A DNA stretch of 35,859 bases from positions 1 to 35,859 of the forward strand of contig NZ_JAPHEH010000002.1 in NCBI RefSeq assembly GCF_029607905.1. The letters are read 5' to 3'. Source of the DNA: Thiovibrio frasassiensis. Its GTDB lineage: Bacteria > Desulfobacterota > Desulfobulbia > Desulfobulbales > Desulfurivibrionaceae. The notes beneath the pieces were generated by a model that searched no databases, was not told where the DNA came from, and saw nothing but the letters and a program-made list of their open reading frames with translations. Shown here piece after piece: positions 2,070-21,159 of this stretch. The position numbers were made by a program, and so were the translations under genes. How positions within the stretch are numbered: the first letter of the stretch is position 1; the number at the start of each line of letters is the position of its first letter.

Positions 2070-2084
2070 ACGGTGCAGTGTTTT

Positions 2085-2260
2085 CCCCTGCCTTGTTAGT
2101 GATTTAGGAGAGTGTCTCGAGCCAATATTTAAATTGAGGGCGACGTTGCTGTTTCTGGGATGGAATCCATTTAGGTGGAATTCCTTTAAGGGAACACAGG
2201 TACCGCCCACCTAACTCAGTTAGGTTCGATGTCATATCCTGACACTTCTATGGCGGGGGA
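2085..2260 (+). ncRNA. ssrS: 6S RNA
   Basis: The segment just after zapA has the hallmarks of 6S RNA, the sigma-70 RNA polymerase mimic. The 5' end (CCCCTGCC at 2085-2092) can pair over 8 bp with GGCGGGGG at 2252-2259. Inside this, GAGTGTC (2110-2116) pairs with GACACTT (2241-2247). The 5' strand contains GAGCCAATATTT, close to the conserved GAGCCGATATTT of enterobacterial 6S RNA. The total of about 176 bases matches the usual 180-190. The position after zapA is the conserved one. The exact ends are inferred from the pairing. Confidence 0.72.
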
Positions 2261-2757
2261 TTTGTTTGTTGCTGATTCTGTCCCTGCAGGATAGCGTTGG
2301 GGCATTTAGATAATATTGCATGGTGAAGGTTTATGGGTAGAGAGAATAAAGCTGAAACGGTTATTCTACCCATAAAGAGGATGCGAGAACGAAAGTGAGT
2401 ACCGTCTTTTCCCAAAAGGGAACGGTACGTAGGATTGTGCTTCAGGTTCCTTGTTGTCATCATACGACAAAAAAAACTCTCCGGTCATATTGAGAGATAT
2501 CATATTGAAATTGTGAAACAAATAGTCGTTTGAGGAGTTGTGTCAAACAAGAGATTTCCCCTGAAGCAGTTTTTCCTTTCCGTTGTTGTTTCCTCCTGAT
2601 CCCCTTTCCCTGCATAAATAAGGGATTGCGGCTTATGTTGTTAGCCTGACCGTAAACTTTGCAATATTCCTTCCCATTATTTTAGGTATAATCACGATAT
2701 GTTTCCCAAAGGGAACAGTGCGTGTTTTTCAGATAAATTCGACATGAGGTTGTCTCC
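2261..2757 (+). other. Structured intergenic region between 6S RNA and rny
   Basis: About 500 bases hold no convincing protein gene. A long imperfect hairpin lies at 2330-2376: TTTATGGGTAG and CTACCCATAAA arms continue into AGAATAA/TTATTCT with a 4-base bulge and an 11-base loop. A second hairpin at 2399-2428 pairs GTACCG/CGGTAC and TTCCC/GGGAA. A related CCCAAAGGGAAC motif recurs near 2706. A weak minus-strand terminator-like stem followed by T8 is at about 2466-2495. I recognise no known RNA family. The 2300-2440 part could be a small RNA or processed leader. Confidence 0.45.
2687..2692 (+). promoter_or_regulatory. Candidate -10 box of the rny promoter
   Basis: A perfect TATAAT lies 65 bases before the rny start. 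No good -35 hexamer is found at 16-18 bases upstream, so a factor-assisted promoter is possible. The implied leader would include the TTTCCCAAAGGGAAC hairpin at about 2701-2716. Confidence 0.45.
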
Positions 2758-13800: not shown

Positions 13801-14005
13801 GGTGTGTCCTCCGGTTTTTACAAAAAAAACAGGAAAAGAATAAACAGCGGAATATGGATTGAAACAGTAACAACGATTTGTTGTTCCCTCAAGAATTCCC
13901 TGAAATTATCTGGTGTTTTAAGTGGGATCTTCAGGTGGCAGGGCGAAGATGGAAGATGAAAAACAGGAGGCTTGCCGCCGCCAAAACGGCGCAGACGCCA
14001 AGGAC

Positions 14006-14386
14006 AACCGCAAAGGCACTCCGCCGGGCCGGGTGATTTCGCCTCTGCTTGCCAATCTCTACCTGCACATTCTCGACAGGATATGGGAGCGGCGTGGCCT
14101 GCAAGTACGACTTAGCGCTCGAATCGTCAGATATGCCGACGATATTGTGGTCCTATGCCGGAAAGGCAGGTCTGCGGCGGCGATGGAAGTTCTGCGGCGG
14201 CGATGGAAGTTCTGCGGCAGATCCTGACGCGGCTGGAACTGCTCCTGAACGCGACGAAGACAAGGACCGGATCACACGATGAGCAAGAGGGAAAGAACTG
14301 TCATGCCCCTTGAGTGGATTGTTAACGAGGTCAACGGCATGCTGCGGGGTTGGGTGGGACATTTCCACTATCGCAATTTTCTCACC
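14006..14386 (+). pseudogene. Decayed group II intron reverse transcriptase/maturase fragment
   Basis: The frame starting in 14006 reads KGTPPGRVISPLLANLYL, the conserved RT block GTPQGGVISPLLANIYL, followed by VRYADDIVVLC with the catalytic YADD. An exact 20-bp duplication at 14171-14210 then shifts the frame. In the original frame the sequence continues with EVLRQILTRLELLLNATKTR, as in intact RTs. A further stretch (about 14290-14386) encodes MPLEWIVNEVNGMLRGWVGHFHYRNF, the maturase domain end, after a deletion. The N-terminal RT part and the HNH domain are missing. It is a fossil of a group II intron or related element. Its 3' end overlaps the last codons of the convergent radical SAM gene. 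Confidence 0.85.
14171..14210. repeat. Exact 20-bp tandem duplication inside the reverse transcriptase remnant
   Basis: TCTGCGGCGGCGATGGAAGT occurs twice in direct succession (14171-14190 and 14191-14210) and is followed by a further TCTGCGGC. Since 20 is not a multiple of three, it shifts the RT frame and leads to a stop at about 14225. Confidence 0.95.
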
Positions 14387-15315
14387 AAAAACCGGTGGCC
14401 TTCATACTCGACAAGGATGAGTTTTTTGCTCTTCAGCAGCTCGTTGAGTATCTGCCTCCCATTTTTTCGCGCCTTGAGCAGGGAGGACACGGTCTCCTCC
14501 CGCAATGGGTGGACCGCGGTGATGCCGAGTATCTCCTCGGCAAGATCATCGCCGACAACAGCGCAGCTCTGTTCAAAGCCGAGGAGATACTCCACCTGCG
14601 CCAATTTTTCCGTAAACAGGTGATGGGCTGCGGCCATAACGGATTCATCGGGAGTCCGGACCCATTTTTCCGCTGGCGGGCGAATCGGTGCGGCAAGATA
14701 GGCTCGGGCCGGTTGTATTTTTGCGAGAAAATCCGCGACTGCCCGTATGTTGTCCGGTTTGTCGTTTAGGCCGGCGACGAGCATGGTTTCCGTTACCAGC
14801 TCCCCGGTGAAATCCCGGGCAAAGGCCTCGATCCCTTGTAATACCTCCTCAAGCCGCAACTTGGGGTGCGGCCGGTTGATCCTGCGCCAGCAACGGGGAT
14901 CGACGGAATCGACCTTCACCGAAACCCATTGGGCCTTGGCCACGGCCTGGCGCACCTCCGGCCGCCAGAGCAGGGAACCATTGGTGATGACGCCGATCTT
15001 TATTCCCAAAGCCTGAAGCTGTTCAATGGCTTCTCCCATCCGGCTGTCCAGCGTGGGTTCGCCATCGGGGACAAAGGTCAGGCAATCCACCACGCCCCCT
15101 TGGCTGGTGAGCGCTGCCAGGCGTCGCGCTGTCCGGGCGTGGATTTCCGGCGGCTCAAAAAAATGGCGGGGCTCGATTTCCATCTGCAAGGTGCGGCCCA
15201 CCTGACAGTAAACGCAGGAGTAAGTGCAGACCTTGGGCCTGATATTGTTGATTCCGAGACTGTTGCCAAGCCGCCTGGAGGCGACGGGGCCGAAGGTAAT
15301 CATGGCATCGTTCAT
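14368..15315 (-). CDS. Radical SAM protein of the MinD/Mrp/NifX cluster
   Basis: This 315-residue radical SAM enzyme has the cluster motif CTYSCVYC (Cys30, Cys34, Cys37), which binds the 4Fe-4S cluster that cleaves S-adenosylmethionine. GVVDCLTFVPDGEPTLD is the glycine-rich SAM-binding region of the COG0731-type branch. The C-terminal 70 residues (from about 245) resemble a small winged-helix-like extension with an HPLREETVSSLL segment. The substrate is unknown. The ATG at 15315 is selected because AAGGAG precedes it; an upstream in-frame start exists at 15384 but lacks this. It is the last gene of the six-gene ORP-like run, 80 bases after mrp. Its final codons overlap the intron remnant on the other strand. 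Confidence 0.82.
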   Translation of the reverse strand: MNDAMITFGPVASRRLGNSLGINNIRPKVCTYSCVYCQVGRTLQMEIEPRHFFEPPEIHARTARRLAALTSQGGVVDCLTFVPDGEPTLDSRMGEAIEQLQALGIKIGVITNGSLLWRPEVRQAVAKAQWVSVKVDSVDPRCWRRINRPHPKLRLEEVLQGIEAFARDFTGELVTETMLVAGLNDKPDNIRAVADFLAKIQPARAYLAAPIRPPAEKWVRTPDESVMAAAHHLFTEKLAQVEYLLGFEQSCAVVGDDLAEEILGITAVHPLREETVSSLLKARKNGRQILNELLKSKKLILVEYEGHRFLVRKLR

Positions 15316-15395
15316 CCCCTCTCCTTTTTTTATCTGAAATACGTTAGCAAAGGCAAAACCATCATGCTCAAGCGCAGGGGCCATGCATTGGGAAG

Positions 15396-16454
15396 TCAGG
15401 CGTAATCCGGGGCGCGCGGAGCCTTTCTGATCATGGCGGCTATGCTCTGGAAAATAGCCCCGACCGCTGATTCCGGCTCCGCCACCATCAGGGGCAGGCC
15501 GCGGTCTTCGCAGTTTCTGATCGTGAGGTCGAGAGGGATGGCGCCCAGCAGGGGGAGGTCATATTCGCGGCTGAGCTGTTTGCCGCCTCCCTGCCCGAAG
15601 ATGTTCAGGGGTACGGCCCCGGGTTCGCTGACAAAATAGGCCATATTTTCCACCAGGCCGATGATAGTAAGGTTGTACTTGCGGAACAGGTCGATGGCCC
15701 GCTGGACATCGGCCAGGGCCAATTTTTGGGGCGTGGTGACCATCAGAATCCGGCAGCGGGGGATGGCCTGGGCAATGGTGATGGAAGGGTCGCCGGTGCC
15801 GGGAGGCAGGTCGATGACCAGGTAATCGAGTTCCCCCCACCGGACGTTGCCCAAAAGGTGGCCGATCATCTTGGCCACCAGGGGCCCACGCCAGATAAAG
15901 GCTTCGCCCTGCTGGGAAGACATTCCCAAGGACATGATTTTCAGGCCGTACTTTTCCAGGGGCAGGATCATTCCCTCCGGCCCTGGTTCCGGCGTGCCAG
16001 TCAGGTCAAGCATAATCGGAATCGAGGGCCCATAGATATCGGCATCCATCAGGCCAACCCGCAATCCTTGTCCTGCAAGGGCCAAGGCAATGTTGACCGC
16101 CACCGTGGTTTTGCCGACCCCGCCCTTGCCGCTGGCCACGGCCACGATCTGTTTGACCTGGGAAATCCCCTGGTAGACCGGAGGCGGAAAGATCTTCTCC
16201 CACTCTTCCCGGCTCAGTTCCGCTACCTGTATCCGGACATGGCTTACGTCGGGCAGGGCGCGAAGGGACGAGTCGATTTGTTTTTCAAGACCCTTGCGCA
16301 GGGGCGAGCTCTCGCTTTTCAGGGCCAGGGTCAGAGAGACCGTATCTCCCGCAACAGTGATGTCGCGGATGAGTCCCAGGTCGAGAAAAGATTTTTGGGT
16401 CTTGGGGTGCTTCACTGTCTGCAGAATCTGGCGGACCTGTTTTTCCTCAATCAT
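15396..16454 (-). CDS. mrp: Mrp/ApbC-type P-loop ATPase lacking the CxxC motif
   Basis: This 352-residue Mrp/NBP35-family ATPase belongs to a group whose better-studied members carry and transfer Fe-S clusters. Residues 1-85 form a MIP18/DUF59-like N-terminal domain. The deviant Walker A GKGGVGKT is at 109-116, switch I is MDADIYGPSIP at about 136-146, and the Walker B-like IDLPPGTGD is at about 214-222. The segment LVENMAYFV at 268-275, normally followed by CxxC, reads SEPGAVPLNIFGQGGG here, so the cluster-binding cysteines are absent. The only cysteines are at about 234 and in IRNCEDRG. The start codon overlaps the CDF-NifX stop by 8 bases, showing tight co-translation. Confidence 0.9.
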   Translation of the reverse strand: MIEEKQVRQILQTVKHPKTQKSFLDLGLIRDITVAGDTVSLTLALKSESSPLRKGLEKQIDSSLRALPDVSHVRIQVAELSREEWEKIFPPPVYQGISQVKQIVAVASGKGGVGKTTVAVNIALALAGQGLRVGLMDADIYGPSIPIMLDLTGTPEPGPEGMILPLEKYGLKIMSLGMSSQQGEAFIWRGPLVAKMIGHLLGNVRWGELDYLVIDLPPGTGDPSITIAQAIPRCRILMVTTPQKLALADVQRAIDLFRKYNLTIIGLVENMAYFVSEPGAVPLNIFGQGGGKQLSREYDLPLLGAIPLDLTIRNCEDRGLPLMVAEPESAVGAIFQSIAAMIRKAPRAPDYA

Positions 16455-17661
16455 CTCGTTCCCCTCCCTCGGGAATAGGAATATGGAGTTCTTTTTTGGC
16501 TAAGACCAGCGCCTTGTCCGCCTCTGTTTCCTCCGTGAGCAGCACTTCGACTCCGGCAGAGCCGAAAACATAGCCCGGTCCCTTGCCTTCCTGCGGTCTT
16601 TTTGCCACCAGAACATCGAGCCTGTTTTGCAGCAGCCATTGGGCTACCTTGATGCCCTTGCCTTTTTCTTCTTGGAGGAAGGGGTTTTGCAGGAGGTGCT
16701 CTTCCGTGATGGTGCCGTCGCGCAAGTACACGGTGATCAGCTTGAAGCAGGGCGCCTCGCCGAAATGTTCGGAAATGCTCAGTCTGTCGTCGGCCAGGGG
16801 GGTGCCGATGGTCATATAATCCCGGGGATGGGGCTGATAGTGGATCAAAATACGGTCGATGTTTTCGATTTCCTTTTTGATTTGGCCGGCAAGTTCCTGC
16901 GACAGGGCGTGGCCTTTGCCCAGATCCCTGATATTGAAGGAGAGATCGAGTTCGACAAATTTGTAGCGGCCGGCGTTTCTGGCCCAGATCTCATTGATCG
17001 CCGACACCCTTGGGTCGGCAAGGATAACTTCCCTGATTCGGTTGAGGGTCGGATAATCGAGGGAGGCATCGAGCAGAACCCGCACCGAACCAAGAAAGAT
17101 GGCAAAGGCGCTTCGGGCGATGAACGCCACCACGATGAGGGCCGCATACCTGTCGATGGCAAAGCCGATGGCATCGCCGATCAGGGCGCAGAGAATGACC
17201 AGGGAGGAGAGCGTGTCGGTCCAGTTATGTCTTGCGTCGGCAATCAGGCTTGGCGAGCCGGTTTCCTCTCCTTTTTTCAGTTCGTACCGCGAAAAGGCCC
17301 AGTTGATGAGGATGCTCAGGATGATGCCGAGAACAGCCAGGGGAATTGCTTCCATTTGCGGTTGGGATCCGCCGAAAACCTCACGGCAGATCTCATAACC
17401 GGCATAGAAGATCAGCAGGGAGGAGGTCAGGGCCACCAGATTTTCCAGTTTGTAGAGGCCGTATGGAAAATCCGGGCTGGAGCGCTGGGAGATTTTGATG
17501 CCCAGCAGAATAATGACCGAGGAGACAATATCGGACAAGGAGTGAATGGCGCTCGCCTTGATGGCCAGGCTGCCGGTGGCCACGGCCAGACCTGTATTGA
17601 TGGCCACCAGTAAAAGATTGGTCAGGATGGAGAGGAAGGCGGTTTTTTCGGTGGTTTCCAT
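16447..17661 (-). CDS. Cation diffusion facilitator fused to a NifX-like domain
   Basis: This 404-residue protein joins two functions. Residues 1-200 are a CDF-type inner-membrane metal exporter with about six hydrophobic segments. It carries the paired metal-site motifs HSLSD (His40, Asp44) in helix 2 and HNWTD (His144, Asp148) in helix 5, which favours Zn/Fe-type CDF chemistry. Residues 205-278 are the usual cytoplasmic CDF tail (ending DRILIHYQPH). Residues 282-395 are a dinitrogenase iron-molybdenum cofactor (NifX/NifB C-terminal) domain with ISEHFGEAPCFKL. The ATG at 17661 follows GGAGG and is preferred to upstream starts. Its place among MinD, Mrp and NifX-like genes suggests metal handling for a cluster-containing protein. 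Confidence 0.9.
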   Translation of the reverse strand: METTEKTAFLSILTNLLLVAINTGLAVATGSLAIKASAIHSLSDIVSSVIILLGIKISQRSSPDFPYGLYKLENLVALTSSLLIFYAGYEICREVFGGSQPQMEAIPLAVLGIILSILINWAFSRYELKKGEETGSPSLIADARHNWTDTLSSLVILCALIGDAIGFAIDRYAALIVVAFIARSAFAIFLGSVRVLLDASLDYPTLNRIREVILADPRVSAINEIWARNAGRYKFVELDLSFNIRDLGKGHALSQELAGQIKKEIENIDRILIHYQPHPRDYMTIGTPLADDRLSISEHFGEAPCFKLITVYLRDGTITEEHLLQNPFLQEEKGKGIKVAQWLLQNRLDVLVAKRPQEGKGPGYVFGSAGVEVLLTEETEADKALVLAKKELHIPIPEGGERDD

Positions 17662-17725
17662 CTTCGACCTCCGGGCGGCAACGCCGTCCGCATGTCGCAT
17701 TGCCGCGATTGGGCGCAACCTCTTC

Positions 17726-18607
17726 CTAGAGCATGATTTCTTCGCGCACTCTTTCCGTCAGCCTTCTGATCGCCTTGGCAGAGGGAGCGTCGGGATAGGC
17801 CGCCACCACCGGCCGGCCATCGACAATGGCCTGGGTGACCATTCTGTCCTTGGGAATTTCTGCCAGGATGGAATGATTGTTTTCCTCGGCATAGCGGTAA
17901 ATGGCATTTTTGCTGGCGTCATGGAGCCCGGCACGGTTGATGACTATCCCCACCGGCACATGAAAGTGCCGGATAACCTGGATCACCCGATCAAGATCGT
18001 GCAGGGCCGCGGGAGTCGGTTCGGTAACGGCCATCACATAGTTGGCCCCCCTTACCGCCGCAATCACCGGACAGCCGATGCCGGGAGGGCCGTCTATCAG
18101 CAGGATTTCCGCCCCGGTTTGTTCCGCTTTTTTCCTGGCCGTTTCCTTGACCATATCGACCAGCAGCCCGGAACTGCTCTCCCCGATATGGAGTTCCCCG
18201 GCAACCACAACCAGGCGCTTCGTGGAAAATACATTGATTCTGCCATTGACCACCTTGTCGATGATTATCGCCTGCGCCGGACAGATAATGGCGCAGGCGC
18301 CGCATCCCTCGCAGGAATAAGGGACAACCAGCGGCGATTCGGTGCCGATAATGGCCGAAAACCTGCAGACCTCTTGGCACTGCAGGCAGCGCAAACATTT
18401 TTCATAATCGATCAGGGCCTTTTCCGAGGTCTTGATCTCCCGGCTGGTCTGGAGTTCTGCTCCGAGCGTAAGATGCAGGTTGGGGGCGTCCACATCGGTA
18501 TCCGCCAGGGTCACCCTGTGTTTTCCTCCAAGAAGCCAGCCCAGGGAGGCGGTGAGCACCGACTTGCCGACCCCGCCCTTGCCGCTGAGGACAACGATTT
18601 CCTTCAT
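17726..18607 (-). CDS. MinD-superfamily ATPase with two inserted 4Fe-4S clusters (second copy)
   Basis: This 293-residue P-loop ATPase has the deviant Walker A GKGGVGKS at residues 9-16 and a switch region ADTDVDAPN at about 35-43. A ferredoxin insert follows with CLRCLQCQEVC (Cys71, 74, 77, 81) and CEGCGACAIICP (Cys99, 102, 105, 109), then LLIDGPPGIGCP as Walker B. Such proteins belong to the COG1149 group found next to orange-protein and NifX-like genes in sulfate reducers, where they are thought to help assemble or position a metal-cluster protein. The start ATG overlaps the stop of the upstream paralogue (ATGA), so the two are translationally coupled. Both paralogues keep all eight cluster cysteines. 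Confidence 0.9.
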   Translation of the reverse strand: MKEIVVLSGKGGVGKSVLTASLGWLLGGKHRVTLADTDVDAPNLHLTLGAELQTSREIKTSEKALIDYEKCLRCLQCQEVCRFSAIIGTESPLVVPYSCEGCGACAIICPAQAIIIDKVVNGRINVFSTKRLVVVAGELHIGESSSGLLVDMVKETARKKAEQTGAEILLIDGPPGIGCPVIAAVRGANYVMAVTEPTPAALHDLDRVIQVIRHFHVPVGIVINRAGLHDASKNAIYRYAEENNHSILAEIPKDRMVTQAIVDGRPVVAAYPDAPSAKAIRRLTERVREEIML

Positions 18608-19542
18608 ATTGCAAGCTCCTTCGCCACGGTCTGGGCCAGCTCGGAAAAAATCAAGGCGCAAGGGCTTTGCGGAGACATTCGTATCAGAGGGGTGGCTTCC
18701 ACATAACTTTTGACCAGGCTGTCATCGAGGGGGAGCGTTGCCTGTACCCGCGTATGGTGATGTGCCGCAATGGCATATATCTGTTCGGCTGTGCCGGGAG
18801 GTTCGGCCCGGTTCACCACCACCCGGCTGGAGATGGCAAAGATATCGAGTAGGGAAAGGATCAGTTCAAGATCGTGGGCGCCCAGGGGCGATAATTCGGT
18901 GACTGCCAGTACCAGATCGGCACCCTCCAGGGCAAAGATGACATTGCAGTGGGTGCCGGGCGAGGTGTCGACGATGAACAGGTCGAATTCCGCGGCCTGA
19001 CGGAAGGCTCTGGCCTTGAGGGCTTTGACAACGCCGGCGCTTTCCTCGGCCGTGGGGGTCAATTCGCCGGTGAAGAGGGTCAGTCCGCAAGATGCGGAAC
19101 AATAGGTGCTGCCTACCATCCGCGCCTTGCGCGTAAAGGCATCTTCCGGGCAGACCAGAAAACAGGCCTCGCAGCCATTGCACTGTCCCAGAAGCAGGGG
19201 AGTCCCGCCTTTCGGGAGAAAGAGAGCATTGAGGCGGCAGGCTTCGATGCAGATTCCGCAGCCTGTGCATCTCTCTGTATTCACCTCCGGCATGCCGATG
19301 GAGACGGGTTCGGGGTTTTCCAGGGAAATGCCGAGCAGAAGGGCGGCATTGGGCGCATCGACATCGGCGTCGATCAGCGCCACCCTGTAGCCGTGATCGG
19401 CAAGGCTGCAGGCCAGATTCACCGCTACCGTTGTTTTGCCGACCCCGCCCTTGCCGCTGGTCACCCCCAGAATCGGGGTGGTAAAACTCTTTTGCTGAAA
19501 GGCGGTGATGATCTCCGGCGCCAGTTTTGTTACGGCCGGCAT
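18604..19542 (-). CDS. MinD-superfamily ATPase with two inserted 4Fe-4S clusters (first copy)
   Basis: This 312-residue paralogue of the next gene has Walker A GKGGVGKT at residues 30-37, a switch region IDADVDAPN at about 57-65, and two cluster motifs: CTGCGICIEAC (Cys92, 95, 98, 102) and CNGCEACFLVCP (Cys121, 124, 127, 131). The Walker B-like segment is FIVDTSPGTHCN. A pair of such ATPases encoded in tandem is characteristic of ORP-type clusters and suggests a heterodimer. The ATG at 19542 is preferred over a start at 19599, because the upstream residues are Arg-rich, lack a ribosome-binding site and lie inside the preceding gene. The chosen start overlaps the NifX-like gene by 13 bases. 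Confidence 0.9.
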   Translation of the reverse strand: MPAVTKLAPEIITAFQQKSFTTPILGVTSGKGGVGKTTVAVNLACSLADHGYRVALIDADVDAPNAALLLGISLENPEPVSIGMPEVNTERCTGCGICIEACRLNALFLPKGGTPLLLGQCNGCEACFLVCPEDAFTRKARMVGSTYCSASCGLTLFTGELTPTAEESAGVVKALKARAFRQAAEFDLFIVDTSPGTHCNVIFALEGADLVLAVTELSPLGAHDLELILSLLDIFAISSRVVVNRAEPPGTAEQIYAIAAHHHTRVQATLPLDDSLVKSYVEATPLIRMSPQSPCALIFSELAQTVAKELAI

Positions 19543-19955
19543 CTGCCCCAGCCTCGGCCCAGTCCGTCTTTCCTGCCGAACCCGAGTCCTTGGCCGCAAC
19601 CGCCCCGAGGGCTCACCGCGGATGAGGCACTGAACTTGCCCTGCTTGAATCTGTCAATCGCCTCCTGCGCAGTATCGCCGGGATCAACACCTTCATAGGT
19701 TTTGATCCTGGCCGCCTGCAGCGCCTCAACGGCATTGGGGCCGACCGTGCCGGTAAGCACCGCCGCAACTCCTCTGTCGGTCAGGAGCTGGGCAGCCTTG
19801 ATTCCCGCTCCCTGCCCCGTGGCGCTAGCCGGATTGGCAATGGCTTCACAGCTCAGAGTCTCCGTGTCAATCAGTAAAAAGTACGGTGCCCGGCCGAATC
19901 TGGGGTCGACACGGGCGGATAATTTTTTTCCAGTGGCGGTGATACACAGTTTCAT
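19530..19955 (-). CDS. NifX/ORP-family dinitrogenase iron-molybdenum cofactor domain protein
   Basis: This 141-residue protein has a NifX/NifB-C-terminal fold over residues 1-110: MKLCITATG at the start, VDPRFGRAPYFLLID, and the GQGAGIKAAQLL helix and TGTVGPNA loop of the family. The C-terminal tail is Gly/Arg-rich with two extra cysteines (GGCGQGLGFG...GRCRP). Members include the orange protein of Desulfovibrio, which binds a Mo-Cu cluster, and small carriers of FeMo-cofactor precursors; the metal here is unknown. It is the first gene of the run, with GGAGGG before the ATG at 19955. No nitrogenase genes are in the window, so a role in nitrogen fixation is not indicated. Confidence 0.88.
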   Translation of the reverse strand: MKLCITATGKKLSARVDPRFGRAPYFLLIDTETLSCEAIANPASATGQGAGIKAAQLLTDRGVAAVLTGTVGPNAVEALQAARIKTYEGVDPGDTAQEAIDRFKQGKFSASSAVSPRGGCGQGLGFGRKDGLGRGWGRCRP

Positions 19956-20099: not shown

Positions 20100-20816
20100 C
20101 TATTTGTCAAAGGCCATGTTCGTGGTCCACTCTTCCCACACCTTGCCAACCAGATTGATGCCTGGTTTCAGGGTTTGCTTCCCCGGTTGCCAGCCGGAAG
20201 GAGTCGCTTCGCCGCCCTTGGTTTTTCGGACCAGTTGGAAGGCCTGGAGCTGGCGGATGGTTTCGGAAACGTTGCGGCCCACCGCCGGGGTGAGAACCTC
20301 GTAGCCTTGGATCACCCCATCCGGGTCGATGATAAAGCGGCCGCGCGTCTCAACCCCTGCGTTTTCGTCATAGATGCCGTACACCTTTCCTACGCGTCCC
20401 CCTGCATCGGAAAGCATGGGAAAAGGGATGCCGCCCTTGACCATCTTGGAAAGCTCGTTGTCGTTCCACATTTTGTGGACGAACATGGAATCAATGCTCA
20501 TGGCAAGCACGTTGACGCCAAGTTTCTTGAACAGGGGATATTTTTCCGCAACTGCGGAAAGCTCGGTAGCTCAGACAAAGGTGAAATCCCCTGGATAAAA
20601 ACAGAGGAGCGTCCATTTACCGAGATTTTCTGAAAGTTTCATGCTGATGAATTTGCCGTTATGGTAGCCCGGCGCTTCAAAATCGGGAGCTTTCTGTCCG
20701 ACCATTATCATTCGCTTTTCCTCCACAATTTTTTCAGTTTGCTCTTTCGGGCCGGCTTCTTCGCCAACCGGCCCTCCCGTGGGGCGGGCACATCCGACGC
20801 TTAGTTCTTCACTCAT
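20100..20816 (-). CDS. Selenocysteine-containing peroxiredoxin (UGA at the peroxidatic position)
   Basis: This AhpC/TSA-family peroxiredoxin has 238 residues if the UGA at 20571-20573 is read as selenocysteine (Sec82). The active site reads YPGDFTFV-U-ATEL, where the family has YPGDFTFVCPTE. The frame is open on both sides and family similarity continues seamlessly (SAVAEKYPLFKKLGVNVLAMSID, DPDGVIQGYEV). It would reduce peroxides in the cytoplasm. The resolving cysteine found in typical 2-Cys enzymes (GEVCPANW) is replaced by GEATPSGW, and no cysteine follows Sec82; Cys9 and Cys72 are the only others. The N-terminal 35 residues are an unusual extension. The ATG at 20816 follows GGGAGGTG. A SECIS-like hairpin follows the UGA. 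Gene callers will split this gene at 20571. Confidence 0.9.
20543..20560 (-). promoter_or_regulatory. Candidate bacterial SECIS element of the peroxiredoxin mRNA
   Basis: On the minus strand, UUUCCGC and GCGGAAA form a perfect 7-bp stem with the tetraloop AGUU. The loop begins 18 bases after the UGA, and a G occupies its second position. This fits the usual bacterial SECIS rules: a small stem-loop immediately 3' of the UGA, inside the coding sequence, with a G in the first two loop bases. It would recruit SelB with Sec-tRNA. Confidence 0.78.
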
Positions 20817-21159
20817 AGGCACCTCCCTTATAGTGGTTGATGGACCTTTTTTTTGTCTGGTGTTTCCAGGTCAACAAATGCAGCTGAATAAGGAGTTATT
20901 TTTAGCCTATCAGAAAAAGGATAGTAACAGAACTTGCAAGTTTTCCTTGCCAAGTTAGAGGGGAGGGAGGCGCCAAGGGAGGCGGAGAAGGGGAGAGTAT
21001 TCTTGAATCACCTAATAGTGCCCTTCGGGTCATTCGGGTCAGACCACGTTAACAAATGCTTCTTTTTTTGTATGGTACTGGAAATTGGAGTTGCCGCAAT
21101 CCCTGCCATCATTCGGATGGGTTATGGAATAACAGAGGGACATCGGGTATAGTGGCTCC
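20817..21159. other. Divergent intergenic region between the peroxiredoxin and ABC transporter genes
   Basis: About 340 bases with no gene. A near-perfect inverted repeat at 20931-20956 (AACTTGCAAG, spacer, CTTGCCAAGTT) is a possible operator for either direction. A 9-bp direct repeat TTCGGGTCA occurs twice at 21024-21041. A TATAAG-like box lies close to the peroxiredoxin start near 20829. I see no convincing full promoter. Confidence 0.35.

Follow-up and report, generated by a model that had tools for sequence, protein, structure and literature searches.

The contig NZ_JAPHEH010000002.1 of Thiovibrio frasassiensis (assembly GCF_029607905.1), which is treated here over its positions 1 to 35,859 (the window, that is, the whole stretch of DNA analysed, 35,859 nucleotides), encodes a protein of 404 residues in which a cation diffusion facilitator (CDF) transporter is joined to a C-terminal NifX-type domain. 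The open reading frame (ORF) starts with an ATG at 17661 and its stop codon ends at 16447; an alternative upstream TTG start at 17718 is possible. As anticipated by an original prediction made from the letters of this DNA, both families are found above their Pfam cut-offs in this one ORF: Cation_efflux (PF01545; residues 9–197, E = 8e-39, 133.9 bits versus 26.6) and Nitro_FeMo-Co (PF02579; residues 295–386, E = 6e-8, 33.3 bits versus 26.3), the latter inside the span of residues 282–395 that had been assigned to it. A ZT_dimer domain (PF16916; residues 204–278, E = 5e-9, also above the cut-off) lies between them, and the topology of CDF proteins places the C-terminal tail on the cytoplasmic side. 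The protein satisfies the general CDF model TIGR01297 (175.2 bits versus 82.35) and reaches the cut-off of none of the NCBIfam CDF equivalogs, the best of which, MamB, scores far below it (136.1 of 350 bits), followed by MamM (111.8/350), Cdf31 (100.1/460), MntE (97/500) and FieF (92.1/420). A magnetosome function was set aside on the strength of this low MamB score.

The fusion gene belongs to a run of six genes with the same direction, which consists of a standalone NifX/orange protein (ORP)-like gene, two genes for MinD-ferredoxin ATPases, the fusion gene, and the genes of an Mrp/ApbC-type ATPase and a radical SAM protein (Table 1). We infer that the run is one transcript; the fusion and Mrp genes share 8 bases, at the end of the former and the start of the latter. 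The joint presence of two MinD-ferredoxin ATPases and a NifX-type protein, a trait of ORP complex loci, is found at this locus. For Desulfovibrio vulgaris, the ORP locus is described as comprising MrpORP, a NifX-type protein and two ferredoxin proteins of the MinD type (PMC6345978). Paired MinD-ferredoxin ATPases, a NifX-type protein and an Mrp ATPase are thus common to both loci, whereas the additional NifX-type domain is carried by the Mrp ATPase in MrpORP and by the CDF protein in the window. The Mrp of the window is not MrpORP, as it scores 271 bits against a cut-off of 450 and has neither the second domain nor a CXXC motif; contig C1 of the same genome carries another Mrp gene, and nothing in that genome scores above the MrpORP cut-off.

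Table 1. Features of the window discussed in the text.
Feature	Coordinates	Strand	Basis
CDF transporter with C-terminal NifX-type (DIMC) domain, 404 aa	16447..17661	minus	Pfam, ORF, AlphaFold model
Six-helix membrane domain, residues 3–196; A-site His40, Asp44, His145, Asp149	17074..17655	minus	PF01545, model helices, YiiP alignment
ZT_dimer cytoplasmic domain, residues 204–278; His251 and His274 at the positions of YiiP His263 and His285	16828..17052	minus	Pfam, structure match, YiiP alignment
NifX-type domain, residues 283–392, with His299-Phe-Gly motif	16486..16815	minus	PF02579; folds of TM1816 and orange protein
Standalone NifX/orange-protein-like, 141 aa, Arg in place of His (VDPRFGR)	19530..19955	minus	PF02579, E = 2.7e-23
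MinD-like ATPase A, 4Fe-4S ferredoxin domain inserted; translation may start further in	18604..19599	minus	Pfam/NCBIfam
MinD-like ATPase B, 4Fe-4S ferredoxin domain inserted; translation may start further in	17726..18661	minus	Pfam/NCBIfam
Mrp/ApbC-type ATPase, FeS_assembly_P domain, without CXXC cluster motif	15396..16454	minus	Pfam
Radical SAM protein, at the end of the run	14368..15384	minus	PF04055; recurs beside fusions
Peroxiredoxin resembling PrxU	20103..20900	minus	256 bits for the downstream part alone versus a cut-off of 270
Reverse transcriptase remnant	13922..14400	plus	PF00078 at 13922–14224
6S RNA	2082..2263	plus	RF00013, 52.5 bits

To determine the distribution of the fusion, one genome per species (84,980 species) was scanned with one conserved peptide. 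Of the 529 loci found to encode a relative, the 80 most similar to the window protein were kept. Pump and tail stand in one frame in 77 of these best 80 loci. Two of the other three are cut by a contig end (L083 and L106), and the third, L104:7968-9300 of Parasporobacterium paucivorans DSM 15970, carries a fusion gene with an in-frame stop in the cytoplasmic C-terminal domain (CTD). The alignment used below (A2) has 73 rows, the window protein and 72 of the 80 loci, and leaves out partial matches (L083, L095 and L106) and those with a stop inside the matched span (L061, L066, L089, L104 and L126). Since both domains share a frame in 77 of 80 loci and the 72 aligned relatives have 38–95% identity with the window protein, the architecture cannot be put down to chance or to a frame error, and the CDF pump with its NifX-type tail is a real fusion protein. 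The original prediction had called for a count of such fusions and their neighbors in other genomes; the architecture is indeed widespread and not special to this genome. Its carriers belong to the Thermodesulfobacteriota, Bacillota, Chloroflexota, Aerophobetes, Poribacteria, Schekmanbacteria and others, with one Rhodopila, and most of these named taxa are anaerobes. Among 395 whole genomes drawn evenly from the phylum of the window, 58 match over nearly the whole length at E = 2.8e-118 or better, and weaker matches that also span the tail (E = 1e-60 to 1e-65) occur in a further six (G435, G390, G196, G262, G444 and G366). At a profile E-value of 1e-90, the samples drawn around a Sporomusa, a Rhodopila and an Anaerolineae seed gave 2/149, 6/150 and 3/151 genomes, each seed included, and the fusion is therefore present but uncommon outside the phylum.

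The CDF domains of 77 proteins (37 of the 73 rows of A2, 12 more distant fusions from alignment A1, 20 ordinary CDFs and eight other CDFs) were placed in a tree by a quick method. A single clade, with a Shimodaira–Hasegawa-like approximate likelihood ratio (SH-aLRT) support of 99, unites the 49 fusions with three tail-less relatives and separates them from the 25 other CDFs. The same split appears at 100/99 in a more careful tree of 54 of these rows, for which 18 fusions and five ordinary CDFs, including the long-branched L141, were dropped. In one of the tail-less relatives, L161, the tail is encoded apart from the CDF, in a frame of its own about 1.4 kb downstream; L160 and L162 have no tail in the 9 kb fetched. 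Therefore, within the sampling, the tail was gained once and was lost or split off a few times; repeated fusion is rejected for the sampled set by the single clade. The component families are known, and their combination defines, judged by these sequences, an old subfamily of CDFs that is marked by its tail and spans several phyla. The literature searched, in which few subscription journals were covered, gave no description of a CDF-NifX fusion, and domain databases may well list the architecture. For ANME-2a, one study lists closely spaced locus tags for a CDF, a NifX-family protein, a P-loop NTPase and two 4Fe-4S proteins (PMC12622379; the part of that work bearing on these genes), so that an archaeon seems to have a comparable locus.

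The AlphaFold model of the fusion protein, calculated from the 73 sequences, has a mean predicted local distance difference test (pLDDT) score of 83.9 and a predicted template modeling (pTM) score of 0.54, and the placement of the tail relative to the rest is therefore unreliable. It contains six membrane helices, a ferredoxin-like cytoplasmic domain and an extra alpha/beta domain at residues 282–391. The pump part can be superimposed on YiiP (VIA Z 21.8, rmsd 5.4, 274 aligned residues; Foldseek E = 1.8e-14 with 8f6e_A), and the middle domain matches the CTDs of MamM (Z 13.3–13.7). The tail matches two standalone proteins, TM1816 (1o13; Z 14.7, 2.1 Å over 104 residues), which has the same ISEHFG letters, and the apo form of the D. 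gigas orange protein (2wfb; Z 13.9, 2.3 Å over 105 residues).

Comparison with YiiP/FieF (5vrf, 8f6e and 3h90) reveals the same membrane and CTD folds, the same A-site positions and two common site C histidines; the differences are the extra tail, a score below the FieF cut-off, and the metal sites. Of the two intramembrane HxxxD sites originally proposed, His40/Asp44, in the second membrane helix, is confirmed, and the pair in the fifth membrane helix is His145/Asp149, one residue further on than the 144/148 first given. In contrast to the DD-HD quartet of YiiP/FieF, the A-site is HD-HD in 62 of the 73 aligned fusions, the remainder being HDEH (6), DDHD (3), HDED (1) and HDHH (1); some of the more distant fusions in A1 have HD-EH, some HD-DD, and one has ND-DD. 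HD-HD is reported, in the portion of the survey that we draw on, as the most frequent quartet among CDF clades and is known from both Zn and Fe clades (PMC5703985), so the A-site does not decide the metal. The odd HD-EH quartet marks a subgroup of fusions (L047-L050 with L110, L112, L122, L124, L125 and L132) that may, by its sequence, handle a different metal.

The YiiP site residues are those that we take to be the ligands, with D51, D70, H263 and D287 borne out by the names of mutants among the YiiP structures. Part of site B falls in the segment FPYGLYKxEN, which is common to all 73 aligned fusions, and the positions of YiiP D70, H73 and H77 (62, 65 and 69 in the fusion) are never D, H and H in any of them; site B is therefore absent. 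At site C, two of five residues are kept in the window protein, His251 (H in 62/73) and His274 (H in 69/73), and three are changed, to Asn223, Asp239 and Gln276, the last being Glu in 51/73.

The tail carries the predicted ISEHFG signature at residues 296–301. Invariant in all 73 aligned fusions are His299, Phe300, Gly301, Asn326, Gly336 and Gly361, and three further positions are mostly basic (K or R at 335 in 73/73, at 360 in 70/73 and at 333 in 67/73). As a comparison, we took the standalone NifX-type proteins encoded at the same loci (47 of 48 cluster proteins, one longer than 260 residues being left out). In these, basic residues are uncommon at the corresponding positions, 335 being Ala in 32/47 and 360 Pro in 26/47; position 303 is Cys in 29/47 but Ala in 69/73 fused tails, and 302 is Arg in 33/47 but Glu in 61/73. 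Position 299 itself is His in only 14 and Arg in 16 of the 47, and the standalone protein of the window has Arg, which leaves the pump-borne domain as the only NifX-type domain with the ligand His in this operon. In NafY, H121 of the His-Phe-Gly motif is named as a key ligand of the iron-molybdenum cofactor (PMC8496260), and a structure of NifX shows H35 as the ligand of the apical iron of NifB-co, with positive charge lining the pocket; relatives without that His (NifY and NafX) are considered possible placeholders (PMC13128457), as far as the passages concerned describe them. Because the His is kept in the fused tail and present in a minority of the standalone proteins, its ligand position is closer to NifX/NafY than to the ORP-type neighbors. 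Thus, the likeness to cofactor-binding domains originally suggested stands in respect of His299, and its comparison with Mo-Cu clusters is weakened by the ORP-type neighbors, most of which lack the His. PF02579 and the His-Phe-Gly motif are common to the fused tail and to NifX, NafY and the C-terminal domain of NifB; unlike these, the tail is attached to a transporter and is not associated with nifH. The FmpB protein of magnetotactic bacteria is also described as having a NifX/NifB domain (PMC4287615, in the section on that protein).

The neighborhoods of 81 loci (the best 80 and the window) were surveyed over nine genes on either side, with genes called by simple frame picking, many contigs ending near the fusion, and gene clusters named by Pfam from one representative each. 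The counts are 34 loci for NifX-type genes, 30 for Mrp, 22 for MinD-ferredoxin and 19 for radical SAM; 53 loci have one or more of these ORP-like genes, and 29 have two or more. FeoB, ZnuA, ABC-3, Fur or the heavy-metal exporter ArsP_2 lies near the fusion in 20/81. A second comparison, over flanks of up to 8 kb, used hand-picked sets of 20 fusions and twice 20 ordinary CDFs, self-set score thresholds and profiles built from the neighbors of the 81 loci, and at least four loci (L168, L171, L178 and L184) are apparently common to both counts, which are thus not independent. Here, an ORP-like gene stands beside 9/20 fusions and beside 0/20 ordinary CDFs of the phylum (Fisher p = 0.0012); the single positive among 20 ordinary CDFs of the order is a MamB-like CDF.

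Mrp is encoded directly downstream of the fusion in 16 cases, including the window; 14 are readable, and none of these 14 has the CXXC motif, whereas it is present in 9/15 and absent in 6/15 Mrp genes at other positions. Eight of the 14 have YF-x-CGH, and the window Mrp has YFVSEP. Within the genus, full-length fusions were found in 3/17 genomes, and the operon seems to be decaying, although these are draft assemblies and some breaks may be errors. In the stretch fetched from G010 (L058), Mrp, radical SAM and, of the fusion, only the NifX-type tail are kept, the tail being in frame with other sequence that, by eye, begins like a signal peptide; in that from G015 (L041), the MinD genes are absent and Mrp is split over frames; in that from G007 (L040), one MinD gene is split.

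Several features lie apart from the fusion. An in-frame TGA at the motif TFVUATE interrupts the peroxiredoxin gene, which is likely to be read through as a selenoprotein. The reverse transcriptase remnant extends to the 3´ end of the last operon gene, and the frame that follows its PF00078 match resembles, by eye, the end of a group II intron maturase. The 6S RNA lies between ZapB-like and RNase Y genes and is all that an Rfam scan of the window gave; among the related loci, L130 has three cyclic di-GMP riboswitches. A plasmid or mobile origin was rejected, as no match covers 80% of the 35,859-base contig among those listed of 71 plasmid records; by eye, the contig ends resemble the borders of ribosomal RNA operons, and the window was on these two grounds treated as chromosomal. 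At L144:7941-10297 (contig C2 of G030), a MamB-like CDF (239.7 bits, below the cut-off of 350) is directly followed by a 501-residue frame with a NifX-type region and weak matches to MamT/MamP and PDZ proteases, which is reminiscent of FmpB of strain RS-1; the CDF-NifX fusion L054 lies on the same contig.

We interpret the protein as a metal(II) exporter whose tail would bind a metal-sulfide cluster or a precursor of one and would thereby set export to the state of the cluster machinery, a reading to which we assign a probability of roughly 0.42. The metal exported by the membrane domain would be divalent, with Fe(II) and Zn(II) as the likeliest candidates, and export would be driven by proton antiport as in other CDFs. 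The extra cytoplasmic domain would bind an anionic metal-sulfide cluster or assembly intermediate through His299 and the conserved lysines, its occupancy would be relayed through the CTD dimer to the membrane domain, and export would in this way be matched to the state of the ORP-like MinD/NifX/Mrp machinery encoded alongside. A metal-binding regulatory cytoplasmic domain is known from CDF exporters (PMC7441159, PMC7864060; in the parts that treat this domain). The HD-HD quartet (62/73), the His299-Phe-Gly motif (73/73), the single clade (100/99) and the ORP-like neighbors (53/81, and 9/20 against 0/20 ordinary CDFs of the phylum) speak for the proposal, as do the two kept site C histidines, the basic tail positions 333, 335 and 360, and the metal-related genes near 20/81 fusions. 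That the tail may sense or accept metal in some form, as first suggested, is a reasonable supposition. A pump gated by a cofactor-assembly intermediate, such that iron (or zinc) is set by the fill state of the cluster line and not by free ions alone, is a bolder claim, which we consider rather doubtful.

Several observations weigh against regulated export of this kind. The loss of all three site B ligands in 73/73 fusions, with the change of three of the five site C residues in the window protein, implies that the YiiP mechanism may not carry over whole. Cysteines are few in the fused tails and missing from 40 of 73; in the distant fusions of A1, the His is kept in 19/19, but Phe-Gly of the motif is lost in some. 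No ORP-like gene is near 11 of the 20 fusions, and Mrp, a very common protein, is the only one beside four of the nine positive fusions. Taken family by family, the counts in the 20 fusions are modest (Mrp 6, MinD 5, NifX 4, radical SAM 1; uncorrected p = 0.02, 0.047, 0.11 and 1.0). Metal-uptake and Fur genes occur no differently near fusions (2/20) and near the two sets of ordinary CDFs (0/20 and 1/20), and Rfam scans of 26 of the 80 loci and the window at the gathering threshold gave no metal riboswitch. Finally, nifH is not associated with the fusion in the window's phylum (17/58 fusion genomes versus 82/337 others, Fisher p = 0.42, the six genomes with weaker tail-spanning matches not being counted as fusions), although the window's own genome has nifH, on contig C1. 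A link to nitrogenase is thereby rejected as a general rule: the nitrogenase cofactor cannot be the usual cargo, and the tail is not, as a rule, a nitrogenase accessory.

The tail might instead be a docking module that brings MinD/NifX/Mrp proteins to the pump, its own cargo being irrelevant. The presence of these genes around fusions is what such a module would predict, and the Mrp encoded directly downstream, which has no CXXC in any of the 14 readable cases, may therefore serve the pump as an ATPase partner and not as a cluster carrier of the classical kind; L144 fits as well, since the NifX-type region there is on a protein of its own, encoded just after the MamB-like CDF. Docking alone leaves the ligand His, kept in 73/73, unexplained, more than half of the sampled fusions (11/20) have no such neighbor within about 8 kb, and lack of CXXC is not limited to the adjacent Mrp. 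We regard docking as unlikely, though it deserves to be taken seriously. Somewhat less likely still, but likewise a serious alternative, is a second metal sensor, in which His299, Glu302 and other residues of the tail would bind a free divalent ion and no cluster. The prevalence of Glu302 in the fused domains, where standalone NifX has Arg, the small number of cysteines, and the Zn/Mn/Fe-type uptake genes near some fusions agree with this idea; however, the distant fusions L052-L057 and L059 have Arg, Ser or Lys at the position of Glu302, and the conserved lysines 333, 335 and 360 suit an anion better than a cation. A membrane metallochaperone that hands metal directly to or from cofactor assembly, which the ORP-like neighbors and the carrier-type domain might suggest, is improbable, because the membrane site is that of CDFs, which export, nifH is not associated, and we know of no CDF that acts in this manner.

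Regulated export with a putative cluster-binding tail is the reading that we carry forward. The presence of a cofactor-carrier domain at the regulatory end of a large and old CDF subfamily suggests control by a cluster or its precursor, and the ORP-type gene clusters, which are little understood, gain a membrane transporter as a partner. The domain combination suggests a pump that may read the cofactor supply of the cell.

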